Part shown: in pieces, positions 20,360 through 61,231 of the stretch | Layout: every line of letters starts with the position of its first letter | How positions within the stretch are numbered: the stretch's first letter is position 1 | Source: Microcella alkalica | GTDB lineage: Bacteria; Actinomycetota; Actinomycetes; Actinomycetales; Microbacteriaceae | Direction of reading: 5' to 3' | NCBI RefSeq assembly: GCF_014595885.1 | Contig: NZ_JABUKC010000004.1 | Coordinates: 62,001-126,000, forward strand | Length of the DNA stretch: 64,000 nt | Position numbers and translations under genes: made by a program | Notes under the pieces: generated by a model | What the model saw: the letters and a program-made list of their open reading frames with translations, nothing else | What the model was told of the DNA's origin: nothing | Database searches by the model: none

Positions 20360-20368
20360 CGCGCGACC

Positions 20369-45638: not shown

Positions 45639-46373
45639 TCAGCCGACCGCGAGCACGAGCACCCGGAACGACCCGAGGTGCAGCACGTCGCCGGCCTCCA
45701 CCCGCTGCGGGTGGCCAGGAGCGACAGGCGCCGATTCGCCCGCCGCGGTGACCCGCTCGGTGCCGTTCGTCGAGGCGAGGTCGTGCACGAGCAGCGACTC
45801 CTGGTCGGGCTCGATCGCGGCGTGCGTCTTCGACACCGACCGACCCGGGTCGGCCAGGCGCACGCGCTCGGCACCGCGCCAGCCGTCGAGCTCGCCCGGG
45901 TCGCGGCCGAGCAGCATGCGACCGGTGACGGGCAGGCGCGAGCCGTCGGGCAGCTCGAGGGCGAGCAGTGTCGTAGCCGGGGAGGCGGTCGGCGGGGCGG
46001 GCGGCACCGCGGGCGGGGCGGGCTCCGCCGCGGGCGGGGCGGGCGGAGCGACGGGCGGGACGGGCGGCGCCGCAGGCGGGGTCGGCGGCGCCGCCGGCAT
46101 GCCCGGCGTCGCGGGGAAGAAGGCGGGCATGCGAGGGCGGTCGGGCGACGCGGGGGCGTGATTGGGGGCCGCGGGTCTCGGGGCGGCGACGGGTGTCGGG
46201 CGAGGCGATGCGGGCATCCGCACGGTGCCGGAGTCGGCGAGGCCCGCCGGCAGGTCGATGCGGCCCCGCGTCGCCGCGGGCGGCTCGGGGGTGGTATCGG
46301 GCGGTTCGGTCTGCGGGATCAGCCCGGGCGGCGGGGTGATCCGAGCGGGCCGCTCGGCGTCGTGGTCGGTCAC
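45639..46373 (-). CDS. FHA-domain protein with proline-rich linker
   Basis: 244 residues. A Pro/Ala-rich disordered region fills residues 15-150. The C-terminal FHA domain is complete: GRMLLGRDPGELDGW, the Ser-x-x-His motif VSKTHAAIE and STNGTERV, so it should bind phosphothreonine. GTG 46373 has GAGGAGG upstream. Last gene of the kinase/phosphatase cluster, 86 bases after the TgpA-like gene. A likely reader of phosphorylation by the kinase at 57513. Confidence 0.87.
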   Translation of the reverse strand: MTDHDAERPARITPPPGLIPQTEPPDTTPEPPAATRGRIDLPAGLADSGTVRMPASPRPTPVAAPRPAAPNHAPASPDRPRMPAFFPATPGMPAAPPTPPAAPPVPPVAPPAPPAAEPAPPAVPPAPPTASPATTLLALELPDGSRLPVTGRMLLGRDPGELDGWRGAERVRLADPGRSVSKTHAAIEPDQESLLVHDLASTNGTERVTAAGESAPVAPGHPQRVEAGDVLHLGSFRVLVLAVG

Positions 46374-46459
46374 CGCACCTCCTCGTCGGTCGCGAGCGAT
46401 CCTAGCCTTCCGTCGCCCGTCGCGAGAACGGGGTGGACACCGGCGGCGGAGCGACTCCG

Positions 46460-48766
46460 TCAGTCGCGTCGCACGCGCTCGGCGCGCTCCACGAGGCGGC
46501 GCGCCCGGGCCCGCAGGCTCGCGAGCCGGAAGCGGCTGCGCAGCCGCTCGCCCCGCGGGGCGGCCGCCGTCGCGCGCTCGATCGCGGCGAGCGCCCCCTG
46601 CCAGGCGCGATCGACCTCGTCGGCATCGACCGCGCGGCCGGAGAACACCGCCTCGTCGGCCGTGCGGGCGAGCGCGGGAAGCTCCTCCGGCGCGTGCGCG
46701 GCGAGGCCCGCCGCGACGAGGGGGCGCGTCTGGCGGGCGGGGATGCTCGCCCCCAGCTCGGCGAGCCGGTCGACGAGCTCGTCCCACGCGCCGGCGACGG
46801 CGAGGTGACCCTCGGCCGCGCGGCGACGGCGCTCGAGGCGGCGGCGCTTGATCGCGGCGATGAGCAGCATCGGGCCGAGCACCAGCAGCAGCGGCACGCC
46901 CGCGGCGAGCATCGCCCCGACGAGCCAGCCGGGCAGGGCAGCGGCGTCGCGCTCCTCGTCGTCGGAGTCGTCGATCTCGACGCTCGTGACGAGGTCGTCC
47001 TGCTCGGTGTCGGTGCGCGGCGGCTGCCGCACCTGCGGCTGCGGCTCGGTGCGCGGCTCGGGGATCTGATCCTGCGGCACGTCGGTCTCGTCGGGCACGG
47101 GGAAGAACGGCACCCAGCCGACCTCGTCGAACGCGACCTCGACCCACGCCGTGACGTCGTCGCCCGTGACGACGACCTCGCCGCCGTCGTCGTCGACCTC
47201 GGGCGCGAAGCCCATGACCACGCGCGTCGGGTAGTCGAGGCTGCGCGCCATGAGCGCGAACAGCGAGGCGTACTGCTCCTCGTCGCCGACCATGCTCGGC
47301 AGCGTCACCATGTCGTTCATGCGGTCGGCGGCGTGCCCGGCGCGCGAGGGCACCTGGTCGTTCGCGGTGCCGCGGCTGTAGTAGCCGGTGGTGGCGAGGT
47401 GCTGCTCGAGGGCGCGCAGCTGCTCGATGGGCGACTCCGCGGTCGCGGTCAGCTCGGCCGCGAGCGCGACGACCGTGTCGGGCACGCCGACGACGGGGGC
47501 CGGCGCGAACGGCGCGATGGGAGCATCCGCGAGCGAGGCGTCGTCGGGCACGCTCTGGCGCGCCGTCGCGATGCGGTAGCCGAGGGCGTCGGTCGCGCCG
47601 CTCGTGACGACGGTCGAGCCGGTCGCGGCGTTGTAGCGCACGTCGGCGCGGTCGGGGGCGCCGTCGGCGCCGGTGAAGTCGATGCGTCGGGCGTAGCCGG
47701 CAGTCGGCAGCCACACGTCGTCGTAGGCGACGACGTCGACCTCGACGGTGCTCGTCGGCTCGGTCGTGGCGAGCGGCGGCTCGGGGATCGTCCGGCCCAC
47801 GAGCCGGAACCGCCCCGAGCCCTCGAGCGCCTCGGCGGCGCCGGCGACGTTCCATGTGACGCCGTCGTAGACATCCATGGTGGCCAGGCGCAGGCGGTCG
47901 CCGGGGCGCAGCCCCTCGACGCGCAGCAGCTCGGTGTCGACCAGATCCTTCGTGTACTCGCGGAACCCGGCGAGCGGGCTCGGCACCTCCAGCGGCTCGA
48001 ACGGCGGCTCGACCTGCTCGCGCAGCACGAAGCGGTCGTCGGTGCGCGGGGCGAGCGCGGCCGCCGCGACGGTGCCGAGCGCGAGGGCCGCGACGACGAC
48101 GATCGCGGTGCCGACGAGCTTGCGCCGCACCATCGGGCGAGCGGCGGATGCGGTGGCCGCCGCCTCGGGGCGCCGCCGCCACCCGAGCCAGACGAGCGCG
48201 ATCGCGGCGAAGGCTCCCCCGCGCGCGAGCGCGAGCACCGGCTCGTCGGTGCCGAGCAGCACGCCGACCGCGTACAGCGCCGCGGGGCCGACGAGCAGGA
48301 GGGCGGCGCGGGCGGGCGTGCGGCGGCGGGTCAGCCAGCGCACCGCGAGGGTGGTGCTCGTGAAGGCGACGATGACCGCGGCGACGTACGGCACGGCGGT
48401 GACGTAGGCGGGCAGGCTCAGCGGCGCCTGCAGCGTGAGGATGTCGGCCCAGCCGAGCACCGGGCCGAGGGCGAGGGCGGCAAGCGAGACGAACGACGGC
48501 AGCGCGATCAGCAGCCCGTCGGCGGGGGCGACGAACGGCGTGCCGAGCAGCACGTACGCCGCGACGAACACCCCGGTGGAGCCGAGCACGCCGAGCCGCA
48601 GTCGCGCGGCGAGGATCGCCGCGGCGGCGCCCACGAGCAGCCCTCCCCCGCCGGCGAGCGCGTAGGCGGCGGAGTCGAAGGCGGCGGCGAAGCCGAGCAG
48701 GCCGATCGCGGCGAGCACGAGTGGCACGAGCACATCGGCGATCGTGCGCGGGGCGAGCGTCGTCAC
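46460..48766 (-). CDS. TgpA-like membrane protein with catalytically dead transglutaminase core
   Basis: 768 residues: N-terminal half with multiple membrane segments, then an extracytoplasmic transglutaminase-like core, a C-terminal membrane segment and a cytoplasmic tail. In the core the usual G-x-C-E-Q-F reads MVGDEEQYASL (Glu496 at the Cys position), and the usual D-x-H-A-W reads DDVTAWVEV (Thr539 at the His position). The surrounding fold is well kept (MARSLDYPTRVVMGF), so this is a pseudoenzyme rather than a decayed gene. GTG 48766 overlaps the DUF58 stop (GTGA). Confidence 0.85.
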   Translation of the reverse strand: MTTLAPRTIADVLVPLVLAAIGLLGFAAAFDSAAYALAGGGGLLVGAAAAILAARLRLGVLGSTGVFVAAYVLLGTPFVAPADGLLIALPSFVSLAALALGPVLGWADILTLQAPLSLPAYVTAVPYVAAVIVAFTSTTLAVRWLTRRRTPARAALLLVGPAALYAVGVLLGTDEPVLALARGGAFAAIALVWLGWRRRPEAAATASAARPMVRRKLVGTAIVVVAALALGTVAAAALAPRTDDRFVLREQVEPPFEPLEVPSPLAGFREYTKDLVDTELLRVEGLRPGDRLRLATMDVYDGVTWNVAGAAEALEGSGRFRLVGRTIPEPPLATTEPTSTVEVDVVAYDDVWLPTAGYARRIDFTGADGAPDRADVRYNAATGSTVVTSGATDALGYRIATARQSVPDDASLADAPIAPFAPAPVVGVPDTVVALAAELTATAESPIEQLRALEQHLATTGYYSRGTANDQVPSRAGHAADRMNDMVTLPSMVGDEEQYASLFALMARSLDYPTRVVMGFAPEVDDDGGEVVVTGDDVTAWVEVAFDEVGWVPFFPVPDETDVPQDQIPEPRTEPQPQVRQPPRTDTEQDDLVTSVEIDDSDDEERDAAALPGWLVGAMLAAGVPLLLVLGPMLLIAAIKRRRLERRRRAAEGHLAVAGAWDELVDRLAELGASIPARQTRPLVAAGLAAHAPEELPALARTADEAVFSGRAVDADEVDRAWQGALAAIERATAAAPRGERLRSRFRLASLRARARRLVERAERVRRD

Positions 48767-50121
48767 GAGAGCCTCCGGATGAGTCGCGGCAGGTCGGCGA
48801 GCGAGCCGACGGTCGCGACGCGCAGCCCGTCGACGACGGAGACGGCGCTCGGCTCGTCGAGCGCGGCGCGCAGCCCGAGGGTCGTGGTGTCGATGCTGAA
48901 GAGCGAACGCACGGCGCGCACGTCGGCGACGGTAAGGCCCGAGCCGCCGACGACGACGAGCAGGCTCGGCGGGGCGAGCCGTCGGGTCGCGGCGCGGGCC
49001 GCCTCGCGCAGGGTCGCGTGGGGCGAGTCGCGCTGCTCGAGCCGGCAGGTGTCGTCGAGCAGCGCGGTCGGCGTCGCCGTGCGCAGCGCACCCGATTCGG
49101 TGACGAGCGCGGCGCTCGTGCCGTCGCGCAGCGCCTGCACGCCGATCGAGGCGGCGATCGAGACGGCGAGCTCGAACTCGTCGTCGCTCGCGCACCGCGC
49201 GCGGTCGACGTCGAGCACGAGCGCCAGCTGCGAGCGCCGGGTCTCTTCGAACTGCCGCACCATGAGCTGGCCGGTGCGCGCCGAGGTGCGCCAGTGCACG
49301 GTGCGACGGTCATCGCCCGGCTCGTAGGCCCGCAGCGCGTGGAAGGTGATGTCGTCGTTCGTGATCGTCGGGGTCGTGGCGCCCTCGAGGTCGCGCGTCA
49401 GCCCTGCGGCGCTCGGCGACAGCCGCGCCGTGCGGGGGTGCACGAAGAGCTCGACGGCATCGCCCCACGCTACGGTGCGGCGCAGCATCCCCAGCTGGTC
49501 GCCGCGCACGGAGAGCGCGGGGCCGGCGACGATGACGGCGCGGCGCTCGGTGGGCACGGCGAAGAGCTCGTCGTGCTCGTCACCGGGGCCGAGCGCCGGG
49601 ATCTCGAACTCGGCGGCGCCCGCGCCGACCGGCAGCTCGAGGCGCGACGGCGACGAGCGGCGCCCGCTCGCGCCCGTGACCACGAGGCGCCCGAGCGCGC
49701 GGTCGCCCGCGACGACGCGGCGGGGCTCGAGCTCGATGCGCACGCGGTAGGCGGTGCGACCGACGAGGAAGGCGCCGCTCACGACAAGGGCGGCGAGCAG
49801 CACCGCACCGAGGGCGGTGAACTCGAGCCAGCCCAGCAGAGCCCCGGCGAGCAGGGAGGCCAGACCGGAGCCGAGCACGATCCAGCCGAGGGCGGTGACG
49901 ACGCCGACGACGGGGCCGAGCGCCCGGCGCACGGCCGACGCGGCCAGGAGGACGGCCGCCCCGACCGCGCTGGTGCGCCGAGCCCTGGCAGGTCGCGGCG
50001 CGCTCGAGCCGCGGCGACGGGGCCGCAGCCGTCTCACCCAGGAGCGCGCGCTCGCACGACGCCGAGCCGGCCGCACGACGCGGCGGGCTCGACGGCCGTC
50101 GGGCTCGGCGGAGGCGGTCAT
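48763..50121 (-). CDS. DUF58 domain protein
   Basis: 452 residues: basic N-terminus of 50 residues, two membrane segments (about 50-115), then DUF58 with the signature LRAYEPGDDRRTVHWRTSARTG at about 268-289 (first and last residues shown in part) and a VWA-like end. Partner of the MoxR ATPase immediately upstream, whose stop it overlaps (ATGA). Paralogue of 18974-20359. Confidence 0.87.
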   Translation of the reverse strand: MTASAEPDGRRARRVVRPARRRASARSWVRRLRPRRRGSSAPRPARARRTSAVGAAVLLAASAVRRALGPVVGVVTALGWIVLGSGLASLLAGALLGWLEFTALGAVLLAALVVSGAFLVGRTAYRVRIELEPRRVVAGDRALGRLVVTGASGRRSSPSRLELPVGAGAAEFEIPALGPGDEHDELFAVPTERRAVIVAGPALSVRGDQLGMLRRTVAWGDAVELFVHPRTARLSPSAAGLTRDLEGATTPTITNDDITFHALRAYEPGDDRRTVHWRTSARTGQLMVRQFEETRRSQLALVLDVDRARCASDDEFELAVSIAASIGVQALRDGTSAALVTESGALRTATPTALLDDTCRLEQRDSPHATLREAARAATRRLAPPSLLVVVGGSGLTVADVRAVRSLFSIDTTTLGLRAALDEPSAVSVVDGLRVATVGSLADLPRLIRRLS

Positions 50122-51086
50122 GCCGCGCGGTAGGCGGGCGGCTCGATGTCGGCGAGCAGCCCCTCGACGATCTGCTCGGCGCGCACGCCGGCGAACGCGC
50201 TCTCGGGGTCGACGATGAGGCGGTGCGCCAGCACGGGCACCGCGAGCTCGCGCACGTCGTCGGGGGTCGCGTAGGTGCGGCCCGCGGCGATCGCCCAGGT
50301 CTTGATCGCGCGGGCGAGCGCCATCGCCCCGCGCATGCTGACGCCGAGCACGACGTCGGCGTGCTCGCGCGTGGCCGCGACGATGTCGCTCACGTAGCCG
50401 ACGACCGAGGGGTCGACGTGCACGTCGGCGGCGAGCCTGGCCATCGTCGTGATCGCGTCGCCGCCGATGAGCGGCTGCACGGCCGAGGCGCGCGCCCGGT
50501 TGGAGGCGTCGAGCAGCAGCGTGACGCTCGTGTCGCGGTCGGGGTAGCCGAGCGAGGTCTTGATGAGGAACCGGTCGAGCTGCGCCTCCGGCAGCGAGTA
50601 GGTGCCGGCCTGCTCGACGGGGTTCTGCGTCGCGATGACCATGAAGGGCGCGCCGACGGCGTAGCCGACGCCGTCGACGGTCACGACCCCCTCCTCCATG
50701 ACCTCCAGCAGCGCGCTCTGGGTCTTGGGGCTCGCGCGGTTGATCTCGTCGGCGAGCACGATCGAGGCGAAGATCGGCCCCTTGTGGAACTCGAACACGC
50801 CCTTGCCCTGGTCGTAGATCGTGACGCCCGTGACGTCGGAGGGCAGCAGGTCGGGCGTGAACTGGATGCGCGAGTGCGTGCCGTCGAGCGTGTTGGCGAG
50901 CGCCTTGGCGAGCACGGTCTTGCCCGTGCCCGGGTAGTCCTCCAGGAGCACGTGTCCGTCGGAGAGCATCGCCGCGACGATGAGACGGATCACGTGGCGC
51001 TTGCCGAGGATCGCCTGGTCGATGTTGCCGACGAGCCGGTCGAAGGCGTCGGCGAACCAGGCCGCCTGCTCGGTGGTGACGGTCAT
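50118..51086 (-). CDS. MoxR-family AAA+ ATPase
   Basis: 322 residues: ILGKRHVIRLIVAAMLSDGH, Walker A EDYPGTGKTVLAKALA, Walker B SIVLADEINRASPKTQSALL, sensor ATQNPVEQAGTYSLPEAQ. Chaperone-like ATPase expected to work with the DUF58 and TgpA-like proteins downstream, perhaps in maturation of the giant surface protein upstream. ATG 51086, 43 bases after the giant gene. Confidence 0.92.
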   Translation of the reverse strand: MTVTTEQAAWFADAFDRLVGNIDQAILGKRHVIRLIVAAMLSDGHVLLEDYPGTGKTVLAKALANTLDGTHSRIQFTPDLLPSDVTGVTIYDQGKGVFEFHKGPIFASIVLADEINRASPKTQSALLEVMEEGVVTVDGVGYAVGAPFMVIATQNPVEQAGTYSLPEAQLDRFLIKTSLGYPDRDTSVTLLLDASNRARASAVQPLIGGDAITTMARLAADVHVDPSVVGYVSDIVAATREHADVVLGVSMRGAMALARAIKTWAIAAGRTYATPDDVRELAVPVLAHRLIVDPESAFAGVRAEQIVEGLLADIEPPAYRAA

Positions 51087-51129
51087 GCGGTCTTCGCCTC
51101 TCGATTCGTGAAGGGATGCTGATGCCGGG

Positions 51130-54100
51130 TCATCGCGGTCGCAGGTTGTTCCACTGCTCGCCGCTGATGGTGTTCGACCAGAACACTTGGCCGGTCGCGA
51201 CCGAGACGATCCGCACCCGGATCTGGCTGTCGCGCCGCGTGCCGAGCGCGTTGTCGATCAGCCGGGAGCCGCTGGCGCCCAGCGAGTAGACGTTGTCGGT
51301 CAGACCGCCGTTGCTGCCGTCGAGGAAGGTCGTGATGCGGTAGTTGCCCGGCGTGAAGTCGCGGTAGTCGATGCCGACCGAGTTGCAGCACGGGGCGTAG
51401 GGCGAGATGCCGCCCTTGTAGATCGTCGCGCTCGGGGCCGGCGGCGGCAGCACGTCGCGGGGCGTCACGGTGTTCGACGTCGTCGAGGCGCCCGTGGCGC
51501 CGTTGTCGACGGCGCGGACCTGGAAGCGGTAGTTCGAGCCGAACGCGCCCTGGAAGGTGTGGCGGCGGTCGCTGCCCACGCGCTGCCAGCCCCAGTTGCG
51601 GCCGTCTTCGGAGATGTTGATCTCCCAGCGGTCGATCTCACCCGTGCTCGGCGCGTTTCCCCACGTGAGCGTCAGGGTGCGATCGCCGCGCGCGCCGACG
51701 GCGGCCTCGGCCCAGTTCGGCGCTCCCGGCTCCGGAGTGGCGGCGCCCGCGCTCCTCGTCGGGGGGCTCTGCAGGCCGGAGGGGCCGATGGCGACGACAT
51801 CGACGGTGTAGCCGTTGCCGACGACGCCGACCGCCGAGCTGGAGAGCGTCGTGCCGCTGACGCGCCCGGTCTGGCCGTCGCTCAGGCGCCACTCGTACTC
51901 GGCGACGTCGCGGCCGTTGCCGTTCGCGGCGCTCCAGCTGAAGTTCACGCGCCCCGAGCCGTTACTCGTGGCCGAGATGGAGACCGAGCCCGGCGCGCTC
52001 GGGGTGCCGAAGGGGCGCGCCGCGGCGCTCTCCGGTGACGTCGTGCTCGAGCCGAGCACGTTGCGGGCGCTCACGCGGAAGGTGTACGCGGTGCCGTTGG
52101 TGAGGCCGCCGATCGTCGCCTGGGCGGCCCCGGCGCCCACAGTGGTCGAGCCGCCCTGCCAGGTGATCGTGTAGTCGAGGATGGGCTCGCCGTTCGTGGC
52201 GGGCGCCTGCCAGCCGATGACGACGGCCTGATCCTGCTCGCTCACGATCGCGGGCGGGGCGGGCTGGTCGGGCACGTCGCGCACCGTGAGCAGCAGTCGA
52301 CCCTGCACGTGCCTGCTCGGATCCTGGGTGGCGTCCTGCACCGTGTACACGACGCTCACGACGCCGATGAAGGAGGCGTCGGGGTCGACCGTCACCGCTC
52401 CCTCGGCCGTGAAGCGCACCTGGGCGCTGGTCTCGGCGGCGTTCTCGACGACGGCGTCGATGACCTCCAGCGACTCGCCCGCGAAGGGGTTGAAGTCGTT
52501 GGCGAGCACGTCGACCGTCGTCGTCACGCTGCGTTGCCCCTTCGCCTCGTCGGTGACCGCCTGCACGAGGGGCCGCTGGGAGGCGACGACCGTCACCGTG
52601 ATCTGGCCGGGCACGACGAAGTCGCGGTAGCGAAGCTCGACGGCGAGGGTGGTGCTCGTGCCGGGCTGCACGCCGAACGGCGCCGAGACCGTGAGCTGCG
52701 AGCCGCCGAGCGATGCCTCGATGCCGTTTGACGGCGTCGAGAGGCCGCCGTACGCGACGTCGGCGATGACGGCGCGGTTCGGGTGGGCCGTCGAGTCGCG
52801 CAGGTCCACCGTCTGGGCCGCCTCCCCCGCCTCGATCTCGAGCGAGAGCGCGGTGAACTCCGGCGGCGCGTCGCGGAAGTCGGGGTCGCCGACCGTCACC
52901 GGCAGTGTCAGCAGCGCGGTGTTGCCGTTCGGGTCGTCGGCCGAGGCGCCGTCGGTGACCTCGAACACGATCGAGGCCTGCCCGCGGAAGCCCTCTGCGG
53001 GCGCGTAGCGCAGCGTGTCGCCGTCGACGACAAGGCTCGAGCCGTCGGCGTCACTGGCCCGGACGTTCTCGGGCCCTGTGAGGATCGCGGGGCGGCCGGT
53101 CGGGACGACGACGATGTCCGCGAGATCCCACTGGATCTCGCCGTCCATCTCGACGATCTGCTGCTCGAGGTCGGGTCGCAGGTACGGCGGCGATTCGCGC
53201 TCCTCCGTCACCGCGGGCGGCACGACGATGAAGGCCGTCGCCGTGAGCGTGTCGTCGTCGGGGTCGGTGACGCGGTAGGCGATCGCGTGGCGCTCGTCCC
53301 CCGGCGTGACCGTGACGGTGCCGGAGGACTGGTCGACCCCGGCGCGGTCGGCGTTCGGCCCCTCGGTCGAGAGCAGCAGGTCGCTGTCGCGACCGTTGGG
53401 GTTGTCGATGAGGTCGCTCACGTCGACCACGACCGGGTCGGTGCCCTCGAGCTCGGAGTCGAGCACGTAGTGGTCGTCGGCGGAGGGGAAGGGGATCTCG
53501 GCCGAGGAGGTGACCTCCACCTGCACGAAGGCGCTGTCGACGCCGCCATTGCCGTTGGTCATCTCGTAGCGCAGCGCGTAGCCGCCCTCGACCTCGGGTG
53601 CGCTGATGATGATCTTCGCGCCGTCGAGCTCCGCTTCGAGTCCGTCGTCGACCTCGAGCAGCTCGCGCGACACGCTCAGCGGGTAGCCGTTGGGGTCGGA
53701 GTCGTTCAGCAGCACCTCGACGGAGGCGGTGCGTCCGGGCCTGACCTGGATGCGGTCGTCGACCGCCGTGGGCTGCGCCTGCACCTCCGGCCGCGGGACG
53801 ACGCCGACGACGATCTCGCCGGTCGCGCGCTCGCCCAGCGCGTCCTCCACCTCGTAGGAGAAGCGGTCGGTGCCGCGCGAGTTGGCGTAGGCCTCGTAGA
53901 CGAACCAGGTGGGCCCGCTGTCGACGATCGCTCCGAGGCCCGGCGGCGCGGCGAGCCCCGCGAGCACGACCGAGTCGCCGTCGGGGTCCACGTCGTCGAG
54001 GGGCACGTCGATGCGCACGGACGAACCGGCGAAGGTGCGGGCGGTCTGCTGCGCGAGCACCGGCGGCTCGTTCGACTCGGCGTCACGCGGCGTCACGACG

Positions 54101-56706
54101 AAGGTCGCCCGCGCGGTCGCCGACTCGCCGAACTGGTCGGAGATGCGGTACACGACCGAGTACTCGCCGGGAGTCTCCGGCGCCTGGAACCGGACGGCGT
54201 CGCCCTGCGTGAACGCGAGCCCCTCGCCCACGCCCTCGACCTCGGCGAGCTGCGGGTCGAGCGTGATGCGGGCGCGATCGGGATGGATGTCGTTGTCGAG
54301 CACCGGCACGCTCGTGAAGTCGCCCGCGCGCACCGTGCGCCGATCATCCACCGCGATCGGGGGCTGCCGGTTCACGATCGGCGGCACGGGCACGATCGTG
54401 ACGCCCGCGACGGCCGTCGCCGCGCCGTCGGAGATGGTGTAGCTCACCTGCGTCTGCTCGGTCACGGCGGCCGAGGCGGTGATGCGGATGATCGTGTTGT
54501 TGAGCAGCTCGACCGAGACGCCCTCGGCGGTCGCCTCCGTCGAGACCGACTGCACGGCCAGCACCGAGCCAGACGGCGACACGTCGTTGCTCAGCACGCG
54601 CACGGAGGTCGGCTCGCCGGCGCGCAGGTAGGCGACGTCGGCGACGGCGACCGGGGCGAGCGGCTCGTCGGGCCGCGGCCTGGCCTCGATGCGGATGAGG
54701 CCGACGCTCGTCGCGGCCTCCGCTCCGAGCCCGTACTTCAGGTACACCGCACCGGGCTCGGTCGGCGTCACGGAGACCCGCCCCGACTCCGGGTTGATCT
54801 CGGCCGTCACCGACTCGGGCACCTCGTCGATCGACAGCAGCCGCAGCGCCGCCCCTGACGGCGAGAGGTCGTTCAGCAGCGGCTCGATCACGACGGTCTC
54901 GCCGACGATGACCTCGGCGAAGTCTGGCGTGCCGACGGGGGTGAGCGTGCCCGCCGCGACGACCTCGATCTCGAGCTCGCCGCTCGCGCTCGCGCGGCCG
55001 TCGGAGACCACGAACGAGATCGTCTTCGCCCCGAGCTCGCCCGAGCGATGCCGGAAGGTGATGAAGCCGTCGGGCGTGAAGCTGAGCTCGTCGGAGGTCG
55101 TCGCCGCGGCGCTGTCGAGGAAGATCTCGTCGCCGTCGGGGTCGCGGAAGTTCGGCAGCACGTTGTAGGTGATCGACTGCCCGGTCTCGACGGCGGTGCG
55201 ACTCGATCGCAGCTGCTCGGGCGCGCCGTTGGCCTCGGCGCTCGTGATGGCGAGCGCGACGGTCGACTCGGCGACGCCTCCCGAGCGGCCGTCGCTCACG
55301 GTGTAGCGGAAGCTCGCCCCGCCGGCGGCGTTCGCGGCGGGGGTGAACTGCAGCGCGCGACCGCCGTCGATGAGGTCGAGGCGGCCGACGGTCTCCGGCA
55401 CGGGGCTGACGTTGGTGACGACGAGCACGTCGCCGTCGGGGTCGGTGTCGTTGTCGAGCACGGGCAGGATCGTCGTGCGACCCGCGCGCACGCCGAACTC
55501 GTCGGGTCGGGCGATCGGGGGCCGGTTCTCCTCCGTGCGCTCGGCGAGCGTGTCCTCGAACGACTCCTCCGAGGCCTCCTCGTCACCCTCCTCGCTCTCC
55601 TCCAGCTGCGGTGGCGTGATCTCGTCCCAGTTGTCGACGAGGCGCAGCGAGCTCTCGAGCACCCAGGCGTTGCCGGTGAGCAGGTCGTTGAGCGCGATGA
55701 CCTGGCGGTTGACGCGGAACTCGAGCCGAGAGCCGCTCGTCGGCTGCTCGATGTCGAGCACGCGCGGCTCGGCGCCGTCGCAGGCGTAGAGGTAGGCGCG
55801 ACCCTCGGGGAAGGCGGCGTGGATGCACCCCGCGAGCTGCACGGGCGCCGCCACCTGCTCGGGCGTGCGTGCCGCGGCCGAGGTCGCCTCGAGGCGCTCG
55901 ACCTCGCCGCCCTCGAGCGGCACCCGGAGCACTCCCTCGCCCGTCGCGACGACGACCGCGCTCGACTCGTCGCTCGGCTGCTGCAGGCGCAGCGCGTCGT
56001 GCTCGAGCTCGATGCGTCGCCCCTCGCCCGTCACGATCACGTCGGCGGCGTCGTCGAGCACGACGGCTGTCGAGCCGACGACCGTCAGCTCGTGCTCGCG
56101 CGGCAGGTCGATCGACGACTCGACGGGCGCGAACCCGGGGCCGTCGATGCGGTACAGCAGACCCTGCTCGGGCGAGGTGGCGTGCACGACGCCGTCGCGG
56201 CCCACGACGGCGCGCGCGTCGTCGCCGAGCTCGAGGTCGGGCTCGCGCGCCGCCGCGTCGAAGCTCAGCTCGTTGGCGACGTCGACGACCCAGAGCGAGC
56301 CGGTCGCGGGGTCGAGCACCGACAGCGTCTCGCGGCCAAGGCTCACGCGCGCGCCGGTGGGCAGGTCGGTGCGCTCGATGAGCGTCGCGCGCGCCTGATC
56401 GATGCGCTCGAGCGTGCTGGCCTGCCGATCGTGCAGCAGCACGGTGCGGCCGTGCTGCAGCACGTCGATGTCGTTGCCGGCGGTGCGCACGCCCGCGGTG
56501 AGCTCGTCGATCTGCCGGTTGAGGCGCCCGGCGAGCGATTCCTCGCCGTTGGTGACCCACACGTCGCGCGAGTCGAGATCGACCTCGCTCACGGGGAAGC
56601 CCTCGTAGGCGATCGCGAGCCCGACGGGAACGCCTGCCAGGAGGGCGACCGCGAGCGAGGATGCGAGGGTGCGGCGAGAGCGCGTCCATCCGCCCAGCAG
56701 CGTCAC
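51130..56706 (-). CDS. giant surface protein with Ig-like repeats and fibronectin type III domains
   Basis: 1858 residues. One N-terminal membrane segment (about 14-34) with a basic start; residues ~45-370 contain short repeated beta motifs suggestive of a propeller; an acidic linker (EESEEGDEEASEESFEDTLA); then about ten Ig/cadherin-like repeats from ~395 to 1450, each marked by ND-type loops such as LDNDTDPDGD, LSNDVSPSG, LDNDIHPD, LNDSDPNG; three fibronectin III domains ~1480-1750; and a C-terminal domain with SPYAPCCNSVG. No LPxTG. The topology suggests an anchored extracellular protein. GTG start. Confidence 0.85.
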   Translation of the reverse strand: MTLLGGWTRSRRTLASSLAVALLAGVPVGLAIAYEGFPVSEVDLDSRDVWVTNGEESLAGRLNRQIDELTAGVRTAGNDIDVLQHGRTVLLHDRQASTLERIDQARATLIERTDLPTGARVSLGRETLSVLDPATGSLWVVDVANELSFDAAAREPDLELGDDARAVVGRDGVVHATSPEQGLLYRIDGPGFAPVESSIDLPREHELTVVGSTAVVLDDAADVIVTGEGRRIELEHDALRLQQPSDESSAVVVATGEGVLRVPLEGGEVERLEATSAAARTPEQVAAPVQLAGCIHAAFPEGRAYLYACDGAEPRVLDIEQPTSGSRLEFRVNRQVIALNDLLTGNAWVLESSLRLVDNWDEITPPQLEESEEGDEEASEESFEDTLAERTEENRPPIARPDEFGVRAGRTTILPVLDNDTDPDGDVLVVTNVSPVPETVGRLDLIDGGRALQFTPAANAAGGASFRYTVSDGRSGGVAESTVALAITSAEANGAPEQLRSSRTAVETGQSITYNVLPNFRDPDGDEIFLDSAAATTSDELSFTPDGFITFRHRSGELGAKTISFVVSDGRASASGELEIEVVAAGTLTPVGTPDFAEVIVGETVVIEPLLNDLSPSGAALRLLSIDEVPESVTAEINPESGRVSVTPTEPGAVYLKYGLGAEAATSVGLIRIEARPRPDEPLAPVAVADVAYLRAGEPTSVRVLSNDVSPSGSVLAVQSVSTEATAEGVSVELLNNTIIRITASAAVTEQTQVSYTISDGAATAVAGVTIVPVPPIVNRQPPIAVDDRRTVRAGDFTSVPVLDNDIHPDRARITLDPQLAEVEGVGEGLAFTQGDAVRFQAPETPGEYSVVYRISDQFGESATARATFVVTPRDAESNEPPVLAQQTARTFAGSSVRIDVPLDDVDPDGDSVVLAGLAAPPGLGAIVDSGPTWFVYEAYANSRGTDRFSYEVEDALGERATGEIVVGVVPRPEVQAQPTAVDDRIQVRPGRTASVEVLLNDSDPNGYPLSVSRELLEVDDGLEAELDGAKIIISAPEVEGGYALRYEMTNGNGGVDSAFVQVEVTSSAEIPFPSADDHYVLDSELEGTDPVVVDVSDLIDNPNGRDSDLLLSTEGPNADRAGVDQSSGTVTVTPGDERHAIAYRVTDPDDDTLTATAFIVVPPAVTEERESPPYLRPDLEQQIVEMDGEIQWDLADIVVVPTGRPAILTGPENVRASDADGSSLVVDGDTLRYAPAEGFRGQASIVFEVTDGASADDPNGNTALLTLPVTVGDPDFRDAPPEFTALSLEIEAGEAAQTVDLRDSTAHPNRAVIADVAYGGLSTPSNGIEASLGGSQLTVSAPFGVQPGTSTTLAVELRYRDFVVPGQITVTVVASQRPLVQAVTDEAKGQRSVTTTVDVLANDFNPFAGESLEVIDAVVENAAETSAQVRFTAEGAVTVDPDASFIGVVSVVYTVQDATQDPSRHVQGRLLLTVRDVPDQPAPPAIVSEQDQAVVIGWQAPATNGEPILDYTITWQGGSTTVGAGAAQATIGGLTNGTAYTFRVSARNVLGSSTTSPESAAARPFGTPSAPGSVSISATSNGSGRVNFSWSAANGNGRDVAEYEWRLSDGQTGRVSGTTLSSSAVGVVGNGYTVDVVAIGPSGLQSPPTRSAGAATPEPGAPNWAEAAVGARGDRTLTLTWGNAPSTGEIDRWEINISEDGRNWGWQRVGSDRRHTFQGAFGSNYRFQVRAVDNGATGASTTSNTVTPRDVLPPPAPSATIYKGGISPYAPCCNSVGIDYRDFTPGNYRITTFLDGSNGGLTDNVYSLGASGSRLIDNALGTRRDSQIRVRIVSVATGQVFWSNTISGEQWNNLRPR

Positions 56707-56787
56707 CCGGTCATCCCATTCACATCGTCATCGGTCGAGTCCAGCGGTCACGGTAACACGGGGAAAAATCAGCTGCGATGGGGAGCG

Positions 56788-57516
56788 CTACCCCTGTGCA
56801 TCGAGCAGCGGCAGGTCGTCGGCGCTGACCAGGCGCGTGACGACCGCGTACTCGACGAGCCGCGCGCGGCGCTGCGTCGCGAGCTTGCCGGGCCCGCCGC
56901 GCAGCCCCTGCACCCCGATGCGGTCGAGCTTGTCGCAGACGTTGTCGAGCTTGCGGTTGAAGGTCGTGAGCGGCCAGCCGAGCCGCGCGGCGGCGTCGGC
57001 CGAGGTCGGGATCGCGCCGCGGCCCGGCACGCTCTGCCGCAGCACGTCCTCCGCGAGGGCGATGATGAGCAGGCGCTGGCTGGAGGTGAAGCTGATCGGC
57101 ATGCGCGTCGTCGAACCGGGGTCGGTGTCGAGCGTCGGTGCGGTGGCGAAGTAGTCGTCCTCCGTGTGCACGGTGAAGTCGTACGTCGTCGAGCCCGCCG
57201 TGAACAGCACGTGCAGGGTCGGGAAGACGATGGGCAGGCGTGCACCCGGCCCGAGCCAGGCCTGCACGGCGCCGGAGGAGTCGGAGATCGTCGCCGAGAG
57301 GGCGCTGCCGACGTTGGCGAGCCACCACAGGCCGTGCTCGGCGTGCACGCGCAGGAAGACGCGGTGCAGGAACGGGTTGTCGTCGATCGTCAGGTCGGCC
57401 TCGCGGCCGATGCCGAGACCCGTCGCGGGGTCCACGTCGAACCACTCGCCGCAGAACTCCACGCGCGGGGCGGCGAGCGCCGCGGCGGTCATCGGCTCGG
57501 TCACGGATTCATTCAT
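56788..57516 (-). CDS. FHA-like domain fused to a helix-turn-helix domain
   Basis: 242 residues. The first ~115 residues form an FHA-like beta domain (LGIGREADLTIDDN, then HRVFLRVHAEHGLWWLANVG), but the usual Ser-x-x-His and Asn-Gly residues are missing (NPFLHR; no S-x-NG). The C-terminal 100 residues are helical with an HTH-like TSADAAARLGWPLTTFNRKL. This suggests a DNA-binding output regulator of the kinase system. ATG 57516 overlaps the kinase stop (ATGA). A GC-rich 81-bp gap separates it from the giant gene. Confidence 0.7.
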   Translation of the reverse strand: MNESVTEPMTAAALAAPRVEFCGEWFDVDPATGLGIGREADLTIDDNPFLHRVFLRVHAEHGLWWLANVGSALSATISDSSGAVQAWLGPGARLPIVFPTLHVLFTAGSTTYDFTVHTEDDYFATAPTLDTDPGSTTRMPISFTSSQRLLIIALAEDVLRQSVPGRGAIPTSADAAARLGWPLTTFNRKLDNVCDKLDRIGVQGLRGGPGKLATQRRARLVEYAVVTRLVSADDLPLLDAQG

Positions 57517-59243
57517 GCGGGGTAGCAGCTCTCGAGAGGGGCCGCGGAGGCGCGACCGGCGCGGATGATCTCGGCCTCGATGCACACGCGCGCGCCGGGC
57601 GCCGTGAGCGGCACGACGATGCGATCGCCCTCGACTGGTCGACGGTCGCCCGGCTGCTCGGCGCGGGCCCAGCGCAGCTGATCGCCCTCCTCCGGCTCGG
57701 GGTTGGCGATCTCGAAGACGGCGGCCGAGCCGTCGTCGCTCGGGCCGGCGGAGACGAGCACGGGGCTCGGCACGGTCTCGACCGGGATGGCGATGCCGGG
57801 CTCGTCGGAGGGCTGGGCGGTCGCGTCGGGGCGATCGCGCACGACGCCGCCGCCGACGATGACGCCGACGACCACGGCGGCGACGAGCAGGAGCGCGCCC
57901 GCGGCGACGAGCACGCGCACGCCGCGCCGCGCGCGGGGCCCGGTCGGCGGGGCCTCGGGGCTGCCTGCGGCCTCGGGCACCTCGGCGCCGTGCCCCGTGG
58001 TGTCGTCGCGAGCCGGAGACGACGGGCGGGTCGCCGCGGGGGCAGCTACTCCGGGCGCGGCGCCCGACGGGGCCGCGCCGCGGACGACCGTCGCGTCGAG
58101 GGCGGGGGCGAGCCCGCTCGCGGGCGCGGCGTCGCGCACGACGGTCGCCTCGAGCGCCGGCGTGGTCGGCGTCGCAGGCGGTGCCGACGCAGCCGGCGCG
58201 GCCGGCGGCACGGGCACCGCAGCGGCGGGTGCGGGAGCCGCGTCGATGACAGTGACACCGCGCACGCGCGTCTCATCGGCGTTCGCCTCCTCCCCCTGCG
58301 GGGCGCGCGGCGGCTCGGCAGCGAGGGAGGTGGGCACGTCGAGGGGCGTGGCGGCGTAGCCGAGCTCGAGCTCGACGCGCTGCAGGGCCCGCCCGAACTC
58401 GACGGCGCTCGCGTAGCGCTGCTCGCGCGCGGTCGCCATGCCGCGTCGCAGCACGGCCGCGAGCGAGGCGGGCACATCGCTGCGGGTGAGCGGCGTGATG
58501 GCACCGCGCTCGATGCGCCCGATGAGGTCGAGCGCCCCGTTGGGGCGACCCGGGATCTCGAAGGGGGTGCGCCCGGCGAGCAGCGTGTGCAGGGTCGCCG
58601 CGAGCGAGAAGACGTCGGAGCGGACATCCGGGTCGGGGCGATCGGCGAACATCTCGGGAGGCGACCACGGCACGCTCATGCCGACCGACTCGCCCTCGGT
58701 GCTCGAGCCGCCGCGCAGCTCGCTGAGCGTCGTCGTGATCGACACGGGCTCGTCGACGACGCTCGACGAGATGCCGAAGTCGGTCAGCGCCGGCCACCCG
58801 TAGGCGTTGGTGAGCACGTTCGCCGGCTTGATGTCGCGGTGCAGGATGCCCGCCTCGTGCGCCGTCGCGATCGCACCCGCGAGGCGCACGCCAGTGCGCA
58901 GCGCGTCGGCCACGGCGAAGGGGCCGCGCTTGACCTGCTCGCCGAGGCTGGGGCCGGAGCAGAACTCCATCACGAGGTACGGCCGGTCGTCGGCGGCGAT
59001 GTCGGCGTGGAAGATCGTGACGATCGAAGGATGCGCGCTCAAGCGGGCCATGAGGTTCGCCTCGTCGACGAACGCCTGCCGCGCTCGCGGCTCGAGCCCG
59101 TCGGTCAGCAGCACCTTCACGGCCACCGGTCGGCTCGGCAGTCGCTGCTCGTACAGGAACACGTCGCTGAACCCGCCCGAGCCGAGCAGGCGCACGTGCT
59201 CGTAGCCCGGCAGGGCGGGCGGGGTGCTGGGGGCGCGGCGCAT
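57513..59243 (-). CDS. Hanks-type Ser/Thr protein kinase, single-pass membrane
   Basis: 576 residues. Kinase domain 14-290: glycine loop LLGSGGFSDVFL, Lys43 in VAVKVL, catalytic Asp137 in HRDIKPANVL, DFG at 155-157. Linker 300-440 is Pro/Ala-rich and carries three (D/E)xTxVR motifs with Thr at 325, 367 and 385. One membrane segment at about 443-467, then a ~105-residue extracellular domain with two Cys and no PASTA repeats. ATG 59243 overlaps the FHA gene stop (TGATG). The extracellular ligand is unknown. Confidence 0.92.
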   Translation of the reverse strand: MRRAPSTPPALPGYEHVRLLGSGGFSDVFLYEQRLPSRPVAVKVLLTDGLEPRARQAFVDEANLMARLSAHPSIVTIFHADIAADDRPYLVMEFCSGPSLGEQVKRGPFAVADALRTGVRLAGAIATAHEAGILHRDIKPANVLTNAYGWPALTDFGISSSVVDEPVSITTTLSELRGGSSTEGESVGMSVPWSPPEMFADRPDPDVRSDVFSLAATLHTLLAGRTPFEIPGRPNGALDLIGRIERGAITPLTRSDVPASLAAVLRRGMATAREQRYASAVEFGRALQRVELELGYAATPLDVPTSLAAEPPRAPQGEEANADETRVRGVTVIDAAPAPAAAVPVPPAAPAASAPPATPTTPALEATVVRDAAPASGLAPALDATVVRGAAPSGAAPGVAAPAATRPSSPARDDTTGHGAEVPEAAGSPEAPPTGPRARRGVRVLVAAGALLLVAAVVVGVIVGGGVVRDRPDATAQPSDEPGIAIPVETVPSPVLVSAGPSDDGSAAVFEIANPEPEEGDQLRWARAEQPGDRRPVEGDRIVVPLTAPGARVCIEAEIIRAGRASAAPLESCYPA

Positions 59244-60289
59244 CAGCGGCTCCGCACCGTGAGGGTCGTGCCGCCGAGGTCGACGACGGTGCCGTCGAGC
59301 ACGGCGGTGGCCTCGCCGGCACGCAGCAGCTGCGGCGGCTTGCCCGGCAGTCGCACGCTCGTGCCGTTGCGCGAGTGCAGGTCGGTGACGACGACGGTGT
59401 CGCCCTCGAGCGCGATGCGCACGTGGGTGCGCGAGATGTCGGGGTTGTCGCGGATCACGATGAGCCTCGGCACGGCGCCGCTCGCGACCTGGCTGGCGCT
59501 CGGCGAGCGACCGACGATGACGGCGGGGGCGAGCGGCTCGACGACGCCCTGGTCGGTCTCGACGACGAAGCGGGGCGCGGCGGGCGCCGCCGGAGCCTCG
59601 ACCGCTGCGGGGCGCGCGCGCTCCGCGAAGCCGGGGATGCTCGCGCCGACGACCGTGAGCCCGTCATGGTCGCCGATCAGCTCGGCCTCGGTGACCGAGC
59701 GCACGATCGTCGCCTCGAACAGCTGCTCGGCCAGCGCGTGCTGCACGAGCGTCTCGCTGGAGAGCGGCACGAGCGTGGGGGCGGTGAGCGGCGAGGAATC
59801 GGGGCTCGCGACCGCCCCATGCTCGACGTTCCGCTCGCCGTTCGGCTCCACCGACCCGGGAGCGCCCAGCTCGACCCCGCGGGCCCGCACGACGCCGGCC
59901 TCGAGGGGCAGCCCGTCGCCCACCGGCGAGCCGATGCGCAGCACGTCGAAGGCGGGCACGAGCGACTCGCGCCAGGTGGCGACCCCTGCCCCGTCGAGCT
60001 CGTCGTGGGCGCCGGAGCGCTCGACCGCGACGGTGAGCGCACCGCGGACGACGACGCGCGCGGCGGGGCCGTCGAGCTCGACGATCGCGAACTCCGGGGC
60101 GTCGGCGAGCCCTGCGCTCGTCAGGTGCTCGAGCACGCGGGTGAGCGGCTGCGGCTCGGCGAGCGCGGCCCAGAGCGCCGCGGCGCTCACGGCGGTGCGA
60201 CCCGGCGCCTCGGCGACGAGCACTGCGAGGCCGCCGCGGACGGCGAGCAGGGCATCCGCCGCCTCGCCGAGCGCGTACCGGGCCGTCAT
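59243..60289 (-). CDS. FHA-domain protein
   Basis: 348 residues. The C-terminal FHA domain (about 253-345) is complete: VIVGRSPSASQ (Gly-Arg 260-261), ISRTHVRI (Ser287, His290 region) and HSRNGTSVR. The N-terminal 180 residues are an alpha/beta domain I do not recognise. FEATIVRSV puts Thr194 in the same (D/E)xTxVR motif as the kinase linker, a likely phosphorylation site. ATG 60289 overlaps the phosphatase stop (ATGA), so phosphatase, reader and kinase are made together. Confidence 0.88.
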   Translation of the reverse strand: MTARYALGEAADALLAVRGGLAVLVAEAPGRTAVSAAALWAALAEPQPLTRVLEHLTSAGLADAPEFAIVELDGPAARVVVRGALTVAVERSGAHDELDGAGVATWRESLVPAFDVLRIGSPVGDGLPLEAGVVRARGVELGAPGSVEPNGERNVEHGAVASPDSSPLTAPTLVPLSSETLVQHALAEQLFEATIVRSVTEAELIGDHDGLTVVGASIPGFAERARPAAVEAPAAPAAPRFVVETDQGVVEPLAPAVIVGRSPSASQVASGAVPRLIVIRDNPDISRTHVRIALEGDTVVVTDLHSRNGTSVRLPGKPPQLLRAGEATAVLDGTVVDLGGTTLTVRSR

Positions 60290-61164
60290 CGGGCGGGCTC
60301 CGGGGCGCGCGGCAGCGTGTCCTCCGCGTCGGCCTCGAGCCGGTCGCGGGTCGAGGCGAGGCCGGGATCGCTCGCCTCCGGCGCACCGGGGCTCGACGCC
60401 TCGACGACGATCGCCGTGACGTTGTCGGAGCCACCCGCCGCGACCGCCGCGTCGACGAGCGCCTGCGCGATCGTCGGCCGCTCGCCGTGCGCGCCGTGCT
60501 CGCGCAGCAGCGCCGCGATGTCGGCGTCGCTGAGCTCGCGGGTCAGCCCGTCGGAGCACAGCAGGAAGACCTGGTCGCCCACGACCGGCAGCAGCCAGAC
60601 GTCGGCGCTCACCTCGGGGCGCACCCCCACGGCGCGCGTGATCACGTTGCGGTCGGGGTGGGAGGCGGCGTCGGCGACGCTGAGCGTGCCGGCATCGACG
60701 AGCTCCTGCACGAGCGAGTGGTCGACGGTGAGCTGGCGGAGGTCGCGGCCGCTCCAGGCGTAGAGGCGCGAGTCGCCGATGTTCGCCGCGAGCCAGTAGG
60801 CCGAGCCCTCGCTGTCGCCGCGCACGAGCCCGAGCACGACGAGCGTCGTGCCCGAGACGCCCGTCACGCCGTCGCGCTCGGAGCGCTCGCGCACCGCGTC
60901 GTTCGCGGCGCCGATCGCGGCGAGCAGCTCGTCGACCGTCGGCGTCGAGCCCTCGGGAACGCGATCGGCGATCGCCGCGATCGCCGTGCGGCTGGCGACG
61001 TCGCCCCGCTCGTGACCGCCCATCCCATCGGCGACGACGAAGAGCGGCGGGGCTGCCCGGAAGGAGTCCTCGTTGAGGGGTCGCACGGCACCGGCCGAGG
61101 TCTCGGCGGAGACGACGATGCGGGTTGCAGCCGACCCGACGGTCACCTCCGTCTGCGCGCGCAC
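60286..61164 (-). CDS. PP2C-family Ser/Thr phosphatase
   Basis: 292 residues, cytosolic. Motifs: VRPLNEDSF (31-34 NEDS), VADGMGGHERGD (46-51), AANIGDSRLYAW, TRAVGV, FLLCSDGLT and GGSDNVTAIVV, giving the full metal-binding set of PrpC/Stp-type phosphatases. A ~30-residue acidic tail follows. It should reverse the action of the kinase two genes on. GTG 61164 with GAGGGGGG upstream; longer starts would be less well served. Confidence 0.9.
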   Translation of the reverse strand: MRAQTEVTVGSAATRIVVSAETSAGAVRPLNEDSFRAAPPLFVVADGMGGHERGDVASRTAIAAIADRVPEGSTPTVDELLAAIGAANDAVRERSERDGVTGVSGTTLVVLGLVRGDSEGSAYWLAANIGDSRLYAWSGRDLRQLTVDHSLVQELVDAGTLSVADAASHPDRNVITRAVGVRPEVSADVWLLPVVGDQVFLLCSDGLTRELSDADIAALLREHGAHGERPTIAQALVDAAVAAGGSDNVTAIVVEASSPGAPEASDPGLASTRDRLEADAEDTLPRAPEPAR

Positions 61165-61202: not shown

Positions 61203-61231
61203 ACCCTACAGAATCGTTGAGCAGCACTCAG
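61203..61231 (-). promoter_or_regulatory. candidate promoter of the kinase/phosphatase cluster
   Basis: On the minus strand CTGAGT (61226-61231) and TAGGGT (61203-61208) are 17 bases apart, a plausible -35/-10 pair giving a short leader before GTG 61164. The -35 matches consensus only partly. Confidence 0.35.

Follow-up and report, generated by a model that had tools for sequence, protein, structure and literature searches.

A PFNA-type cluster of Microcella alkalica with a regulator and a candidate operator that probably tie it to type VII secretion

The PFNA operon of Bifidobacterium, given in part of PMC8430577 as pkb2-fn3-aaa-atp-duf58-tgm, with prpC, a hypothetical gene and fha in some species, is called unique to bifidobacteria in passages of that paper and of PMC10688814. 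What, then, is a cluster of this kind doing in Microcella alkalica, a member of the Microbacteriaceae? Here nine minus-strand genes lie at positions 45639-61164 of a 64,000-nucleotide stretch (contig NZ_JABUKC010000004.1, 62,001 to 126,000; the whole stretch is called the window). They encode, in order, a PP2C-type phosphatase, an FHA protein (FHA1), a Hanks-type kinase, a protein with an FHA-like domain and a helix-turn-helix-like (HTH-like) C-terminus (FHTH), a giant Ig/Fn3 protein, a MoxR ATPase, a DUF58 protein, a TgpA-like transglutaminase homologue (Tgm) and a second FHA protein (FHA2). An earlier note, made from the letters of this DNA alone, had proposed this content, order and strand, all of which are confirmed by Pfam matches and open reading frames. 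Its description of the cluster as PFNA-like is also borne out, as the kinase, Fn3 giant, MoxR, DUF58 and Tgm genes follow one another in that order, with FHTH inserted between kinase and giant.

We propose that the cluster is the Micrococcales form of PFNA and provides an EssC/WXG100 type VII secretion system with its signalling and surface arm, under the control of FHTH, a reading that we hold with slightly better than even confidence. The association with type VII secretion was missed in the earlier note. Judged from sequence, the locus is a PFNA-type cluster, and a probable regulator and operator tie it to type VII secretion.

FHTH, a candidate operator and type VII secretion genes

Our set of relatives comprises 99 genomes, the window's own included, and 33 of them hold FHTH (34 genes). 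Twenty of these genes stand in the order of the window (type A; two such loci end at a contig end) and ten in the circular permutation giant-MoxR-DUF58-Tgm-FHA-PP2C-FHA-kinase-FHTH, and the other four are a second copy lying in tandem beside a type A cluster plus those of L120, L121 and L122, loci whose fetched stretch shows no giant gene. In the permuted clusters that were read, the next genes encode an EssC/EccC-like ATPase and WXG100-type proteins. The ATPases of L149 and L153 combine FHA with FtsK_SpoIIIE, and that of L153 matches the NCBIfam EssC model at 2.6e-156, under its cut-off. Counted by genome at 1100 bits or more, a cut-off chosen after the list was seen and with at most five candidates scored per genome, an EssC-like ATPase is present in 27/33 genomes with FHTH and 2/66 without; inside the window's genus the figures are 7/8 and 0/18. 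By coordinates, EssC is the next gene after FHTH in 11 of the 27 genomes and after Tgm in another 4, 15 in all. The phosphothreonine-binding residues of the EssC FHA domain are intact in three of the four sequences compared, a set that leaves the EssC of the window's own genome outside; in L147 the Asn-Gly pair reads HG. A BLAST comparison of the own-genome WXG100 protein with one from a permuted cluster gave nothing meaningful (E 0.89).

The second association is with an 18-bp dyad, ATGGGGA-N4-TCCCCAT, which has a constant spacer and precedes giant, PP2C and WXG100 genes. Genome-wide, at no more than one mismatch, it occurs in 29/33 genomes with FHTH as against 5/66 without (111 sites versus 5), and within the window's genus in 8/8 as against 2/18, while a reversed-pattern control occurs in 9/99 genomes. 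The fetched loci hold 107 distinct dyad sites. A giant, PP2C or WXG100-type gene begins a short way downstream of 95 of these, against none for the reversed pattern: 51 at 38-196 nt before a giant, 17 at 60-189 nt before PP2C, 2 before a WXG-like open reading frame (ORF) under a strict rule, 24 before an ORF with a WXG-type motif and 1 before a Pfam WXG100 gene; the other 12 are unassigned. These loci were gathered around clusters, and the genome-wide count is the less biased one. A k-mer comparison of the regions before PP2C, which took in coding sequence, gave no clear motif. When up to two mismatches are allowed, the dyad precedes the giant in 12/24 type A upstream regions and in 44/86 from a scan of named genomes (partly the same genomes as type A), compared with 0 to 0.1 in shuffled upstream regions. 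In permuted clusters, where the giant is far from the FHTH gene, it does so in 3/9. Clusters without FHTH in the fetched stretch gave 0/20 where a kinase lies upstream and 2/11 where none does, both of permuted order and in genomes that may have FHTH elsewhere. Among Bifidobacteriaceae the count was 0/15.

Past dyad sites with up to three mismatches lies an extended -10-like element, at 19-21 nt in 38 cases, 29-30 nt in 13 and 129-130 nt in 2, so that the two main spacing classes differ by one helical turn. The combination of dyad and -10 before the giant gene suggests an internal promoter there. In the window the only dyad with three mismatches or fewer, where 0.84 would be expected by chance, has two mismatches and overlaps the FHTH stop codon; the case for it rests on its position and on two relatives, L067 and L136, which hold a two-mismatch dyad at the same place. 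The window's genome was scored positive through a site on another contig, a one-mismatch dyad that precedes a Pfam WXG100 gene by 82 nt and is followed at the usual distance by GTTAGCGT. On contig C1 of this genome the EssC-like gene (208822-213078) is followed by a two-mismatch dyad, which precedes a small WxG-motif ORF (no Pfam WXG100 match), and then by the dyad-linked Pfam WXG100 gene. Directly after this last gene a prepilin-like protein (GFTLIELLVVVAIIGILAAIAIPVF) is encoded (L335:1590-2174). Elsewhere, G070 and G087 each hold 13 dyad sites at no more than one mismatch, a larger putative regulon. L130 has a cluster whose two halves diverge, and a perfect dyad sits between its PP2C and giant genes. 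Two genomes, G053 with one dyad and G068 with none, exceed 1100 bits for an EssC-like ATPase and lack FHTH.

As to FHTH itself, an alignment of 30 members has 50 invariant columns, 31 of them in the C-terminal half, and the motifs LHR.FL and FNRKLDNVC, the latter in that half, are invariant. The GR of an FHA pocket is kept, whereas Ser is replaced by His and His by Phe in 30/30 members and Asn-Gly is absent under the hhalign alignment. Because the phosphothreonine residues are gone from its FHA-like half, FHTH is unlikely to be a plain phospho-reader, and the role of a plain FHA reader was rejected on these residues. The FHA-like/HTH label of the earlier note has weak sequence evidence behind it: Pfam FHA matches none of the 30 members, HTH_8 matches 7/30 at E up to 0.1 (best 0.011), and one hhalign comparison with the FHA domains of the cluster gave E 7.8e-4 at 25% probability, which makes the relation to FHA a weak one. 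Three matches to solved structures (E 0.27 to 0.38) were judged to be chance. The suggestion that FHTH feeds back on transcription fares better, in that the dyad before the giant gene tracks the FHTH gene, and it probably does act on transcription. Another regulator could read the dyad instead, FHTH being a cytoplasmic adaptor that does not bind DNA, as might be thought from the failure of every curated HTH or FHA family to pass its cut-off and from the five genomes without FHTH that hold one dyad each, although the reversed-pattern control is as frequent. We think this unlikely, since no DNA-binding-like protein other than FHTH was recognised in the cluster, the invariant columns of FHTH concentrate in the C-terminal half and its presence matches that of the dyad across genomes.

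Several observations weigh against the link to secretion that we favour. At 400 bits the EssC contrast drops to 30/33 versus 15/66; at 1100 bits 6/33 genomes with FHTH lack a match, and 4/33 lack the dyad; the dyad is missing from about half of the regions upstream of giants in FHTH clusters; the window dyad, taken alone, is within chance and falls outside the genome-wide count; and the HTH of FHTH is weak by Pfam. Moreover, the core cluster exists without FHTH and dyad, both in Bifidobacteriaceae and in a second, paralogous PFNA-type cluster of the window's own genome (L065/L134, G000:C2; FHA-PP2C-kinase-giant-MoxR-DUF58-Tgm-FHA), which has no FHTH and no dyad before its giant. The secretion link is therefore not a property of all PFNA clusters. 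These FHTH-free clusters would suit a self-contained surface-protein assembly system, in which the giant and an independent type VII system answer to one envelope signal and are therefore both regulated by FHTH, the two not forming one machine. The position of EssC on another contig of the window's genome, and the want of a match at 1100 bits in three bifidobacterial genomes and in the 18 FHTH-free genomes of its genus, point the same way. We regard this alternative as doubtful, as it accounts poorly for EssC directly after FHTH or Tgm in more than half of the genomes holding both and for the co-occurrence of FHTH and EssC within a single genus.

For the proposed secretion arm we infer DNA binding and activation by FHTH, phospho-gating and a secretory role of the giant. 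FHTH would bind the dyad, which lies about 20 or 30 nt ahead of the extended -10, and switch the giant gene, the PP2C-FHA-kinase-FHTH unit and the WXG100 genes together. FHA1, FHA2 and the FHA domain of EssC would read the marks set by the kinase, so that the machine is assembled or gated. MoxR-DUF58 and the pseudo-transglutaminase may place or mature the giant by binding, not by cross-linking, and the giant would span the wall as a conduit, a support or a target-recognition stalk. MoxR/DUF58-assisted assembly of the giant, as the earlier note had it, is likewise inferred. More tentatively, and with less than even confidence, the whole may be a Micrococcales subtype of type VII secretion: a wall-spanning giant placed by MoxR, DUF58 and the pseudo-transglutaminase, gated by kinase and PP2C with the FHA proteins and the EssC FHA domain as intermediaries, its genes forming a single regulon under an FHA-like/HTH regulator of a new class that acts at the 18-bp dyad. 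The bifidobacterial PFNA would then be a relative that lost, or never had, the link.

The nine genes and their order in relatives

Table 1. Features of the cluster, with a control gene from elsewhere in the window (window coordinates; aa, amino acids; TM, transmembrane segment).
Feature	Positions	Strand	Evidence or remark
PP2C-type Ser/Thr phosphatase, 292 aa	60286..61164	-	Pfam PP2C_2 1.1e-9; NCBIfam Stp1 6.6e-61, under its cut-off
FHA protein 1 (FHA1), 348 aa	59243..60289	-	Pfam FHA 6.5e-8 (query began 3 bases upstream)
Hanks-type kinase	57513..59243	-	Pfam Pkinase 1.1e-31
FHTH, FHA-like domain with altered phosphate pocket and HTH-like C-terminus, 242 aa	56788..57516	-	30-member alignment
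Candidate operator, window copy of dyad	56778..56795	-	2 mismatches; overlaps FHTH stop
Extended -10-like element TGTTACCGT	56750..56758	-	19 nt past window dyad
Giant protein, 1858 aa	51130..56706	-	N-terminal TM, 9 Big_9 Ig, 2 fn3, C-terminal domain
MoxR AAA+ ATPase	50118..51086	-	Pfam AAA_3 4.6e-61; Walker A and B intact
DUF58 protein	48763..50121	-	Pfam DUF58 7.4e-15; 3 TM by hydropathy
TgpA-like pseudo-transglutaminase (Tgm)	46460..48766	-	Pfam Transglut_core 7.1e-18, TgpA_N 1e-9
FHA protein 2 (FHA2), GTG start inferred	45639..46373	-	Pfam FHA 7.1e-7 (query began upstream of inferred start)
Stand-alone canonical TgpA, control outside cluster	16600..19017	-	Cys and His; GYCVHFGS and DELHTW

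The stop/start overlaps reported earlier for most junctions are present at five of eight (PP2C/FHA1, FHA1/kinase, kinase/FHTH, MoxR/DUF58 and DUF58/Tgm), by 1 or 4 bases, that between PP2C and FHA1 being an ATGA overlap. Gaps remain between FHTH and giant (81 bp), giant and MoxR (43 bp) and Tgm and FHA2 (86 bp, from the inferred GTG start), and the PP2C gene has an alternative GTG start at 61227. The kinase has a single TM at 444-462 by hydropathy, with a C-terminal domain past it. Both FHA1 and FHA2 hold GR, Ser, His and Asn-Gly, so their phosphothreonine-binding residues are intact. The cluster lies between a TerC-family gene and a predicted tRNA-Glu on the upstream side and, downstream, genes of the aconitase and EPSP-synthase families, read as leuC and murA. 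ARAGORN calls a tRNA-Ala at 53313-53399, inside the giant gene on the opposite strand, which is probably false.

Across relatives the catalytic and binding residues of the signalling proteins are kept (rows not deduplicated): the HRD and DFG Asp of the kinase in 90/90 rows, the DG(M/L)GG motif of PP2C (metal-site Asp; DGMGG) in 69/69, GTGKT and DE of MoxR in 80/80, and, by two overlapping profiles, the Ser and His of cluster FHA domains in 113/113 and 116/116 and their Asn in 108/113 and 110/115. DUF58 departs from this pattern, as the first Asp of its vWA-like motif is kept in 39/82 clusters versus 30/31 stand-alone MoxR-DUF58-TgpA trios.

The final FHA gene is seen in 8/20 type A loci, the window counted, and the permuted form holds the same nine genes in 9/9 loci read on both sides. 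In the scan of named genomes at least 593 stretches matched and 582 were confirmed, of which the best 80 were kept; the exact order PP2C-FHA-kinase-FHTH-giant-MoxR-DUF58-Tgm is found in the fetched stretch of 40 of these best 80 of 582, and the remainder are shorter, permuted or rearranged or have two giants, with L326 showing FHA and FHTH only. Agromyces, Cryobacterium, Leifsonia, Plantibacter, Salinibacterium, Microcella, Brachybacterium and others are among the matches listed. The earlier note would have given way had these families come apart in related genomes; they stay together across genera, and because the order recurs from genus to genus it is beyond chance. Side cases include a tandem double cluster (L066/L286) whose upstream unit shows no kinase but includes PP2C, FHA and an FHTH of its own, and an FHTH gene 61% identical in a Bacillota assembly recorded as Sporosarcina beigongshangi (L325), by contamination or transfer.

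The giant protein and the pseudo-transglutaminase

The giant has one TM, N-terminal only by hydropathy, and two Fn3 domains near its C-terminus, the features by which a PFNA giant is recognised. Its N-terminal domain shows a weak resemblance to beta-propellers, through matches to Pizza proteins (E 3.1e-5), which we take to be designed beta-propellers, and to a surface-layer protein (E 1.3e-3). Thirteen loci carry two giant genes in tandem (L255, L256, L258, L260, L265, L270, L272, L275, L278, L283, L296, L300 and L308), and in six loci the dyad sits between tandem giants. For L071 (G064:C11), the 20 kb fetched contained a 2030-aa giant gene and no other member of the cluster.

Among the genera that bear the cluster are bacteria of soil, plants and cold habitats. 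The window's giant is a homologue of the bifidobacterial one (31% over ~1,600 residues) with the same architecture, and for the latter, according to parts of PMC8430577 and PMC10688814, TNF-alpha binding by the FN3 region of B. longum has been reported; the earlier note's statement that no function had been described for such a cluster fails, as adhesion and cytokine binding have been proposed in print for the bifidobacterial cluster. That the cluster in general serves host immunity or adhesion is nevertheless very improbable, because it is widespread in such soil, plant and cold-habitat genera and host cytokines can hardly be its general ligand.

The earlier note called the transglutaminase dead, correctly: in the window the triad reads Glu for Cys, Thr for His and Phe for Asp. 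It treated the loss as local, whereas it is family-wide. We compared copies linked to a giant gene with the Tgm of stand-alone trios, having excluded five linked, three end-of-locus and one trio fragment without the region, plus duplicates, and having kept the cluster L069/L070 (Asp) apart under its own label. The catalytic Cys is found in 0/71 distinct linked copies, Bifidobacteriaceae included (nucleophile column D 33, S 15, E 13, A 6, G 2, Q 2), and His in 12/71, as against 30/31 trio TgpA proteins for Cys and likewise for His. The window offers a Cys-bearing control in its own trio, which spans 16600-21394, with a DUF58 match (ends not resolved) between TgpA and MoxR at 20369-21394. The one Cys-less trio, L206, may be a divergent cluster, since its MoxR falls with those of the clusters and its neighbours include a kinase and a 1788-aa ORF that weakly matches the giant. 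Local decay of the window's Tgm was ruled out, as every readable linked copy lacks the Cys. In G023 (C1:142376-144653), a genome with no FHTH match, a type A-like Tgm (79% and 72% identity) is split into two frames, perhaps a decaying cluster.

The Bifidobacteriaceae contribute 15 distinct copies from 16 loci, with GDSEQYAS and hence Ser for Cys. The family was recognised by two genus-specific 16S primers from the literature. Across the 297 genomes of the order the first matches 15, which belong to two genera of a single family, and the second matches 16/20 genomes of that family; neither primer matches every member that supplied one of the 16 loci. A quick MoxR tree splits trios from clusters (SH-aLRT 97) with one trio-labelled row, L122, on the cluster side, which is a locus with FHTH and no giant in the fetched stretch, and a quick Tgm tree likewise places one trio-labelled row among the clusters. 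One ancestral loss of the Cys is the simplest reading, so that a Fisher test on the linked/trio table overstates independence.

Could Asp, Glu or Ser have taken over as nucleophile, leaving Tgm an enzyme? An alignment of 12 members shows no variation in the flanking G and EQ, which argues that the site is under selection. The position itself, though, accepts six different residues, the His is seldom kept and no other Cys column is conserved among linked copies that might compensate, and we give little credence to an active enzyme. Tgm looks inactive across the family, which is not a local defect.

Comparison with known systems

The same core is present in many other actinobacterial genera, so the restriction of PFNA to Bifidobacterium does not hold, and two statements in print are corrected, one confining the cluster to bifidobacteria and the other presuming Tgm to be a cysteine enzyme. 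Gained are a family-wide pseudo-transglutaminase, with a Cys-bearing control at hand in the window, and a candidate operator and regulon, open to direct test, through which a surface cluster with phospho-signalling would be connected to type VII secretion in actinobacteria of the environment. Full-text searches of open-licence PMC papers, some seen in part, yielded no statement on the Cys loss of Tgm, on giant-bearing PFNA outside bifidobacteria or on a link between PFNA and type VII secretion.

The Bifidobacterium PFNA shares with the window's cluster the five core families in the same order, a homologous giant and a Tgm without Cys. The cluster described here differs in having FHTH between kinase and giant, two FHA proteins and PP2C as first gene, and, as a type, in its dyad, its EssC link and its occurrence outside Bifidobacterium. 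Not all of the parts that the earlier note counted as extra are so: the second FHA protein and the HTH protein stand as additions, but the B. longum cluster, of eight genes in the passages seen of PMC8430577, already includes a phosphatase gene and one FHA gene. The same passages report that Pkb2 phosphorylates MoxR, and part of PMC12067865 likens the mycobacterial moxR operon to PFNA. The MoxR-DUF58-TgpA trio, of which the window holds one, has three of the families in the same order; it differs in that its TgpA keeps Cys and His and in that the MoxR of the clusters forms a separate group.

The nearest published system is T7SSd, described by Garrett, Higginson and Palmer in 2024 (PMC11217815), in whose main text MoxR, transglutaminase and Microbacteri find no match. 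As set out in parts of that paper, T7SSd is likewise found in Actinomycetota and has an EssC with a conserved FHA site, WXG100 proteins, a Ser/Thr kinase and a large Ig-like envelope protein. That protein, TsdI, has a Sec signal and a C-terminal TM, whereas the giant here has an N-terminal TM only, and the five-component core of T7SSd is given without PP2C, MoxR, DUF58 or Tgm. T7SSb also shares an EssC of FHA plus FtsK/SpoIIIE ATPase with WXG100 partners, but its FHA is described in the same source, as partly seen, as having no phosphothreonine site, in contrast to the intact site of most EssC sequences compared here.

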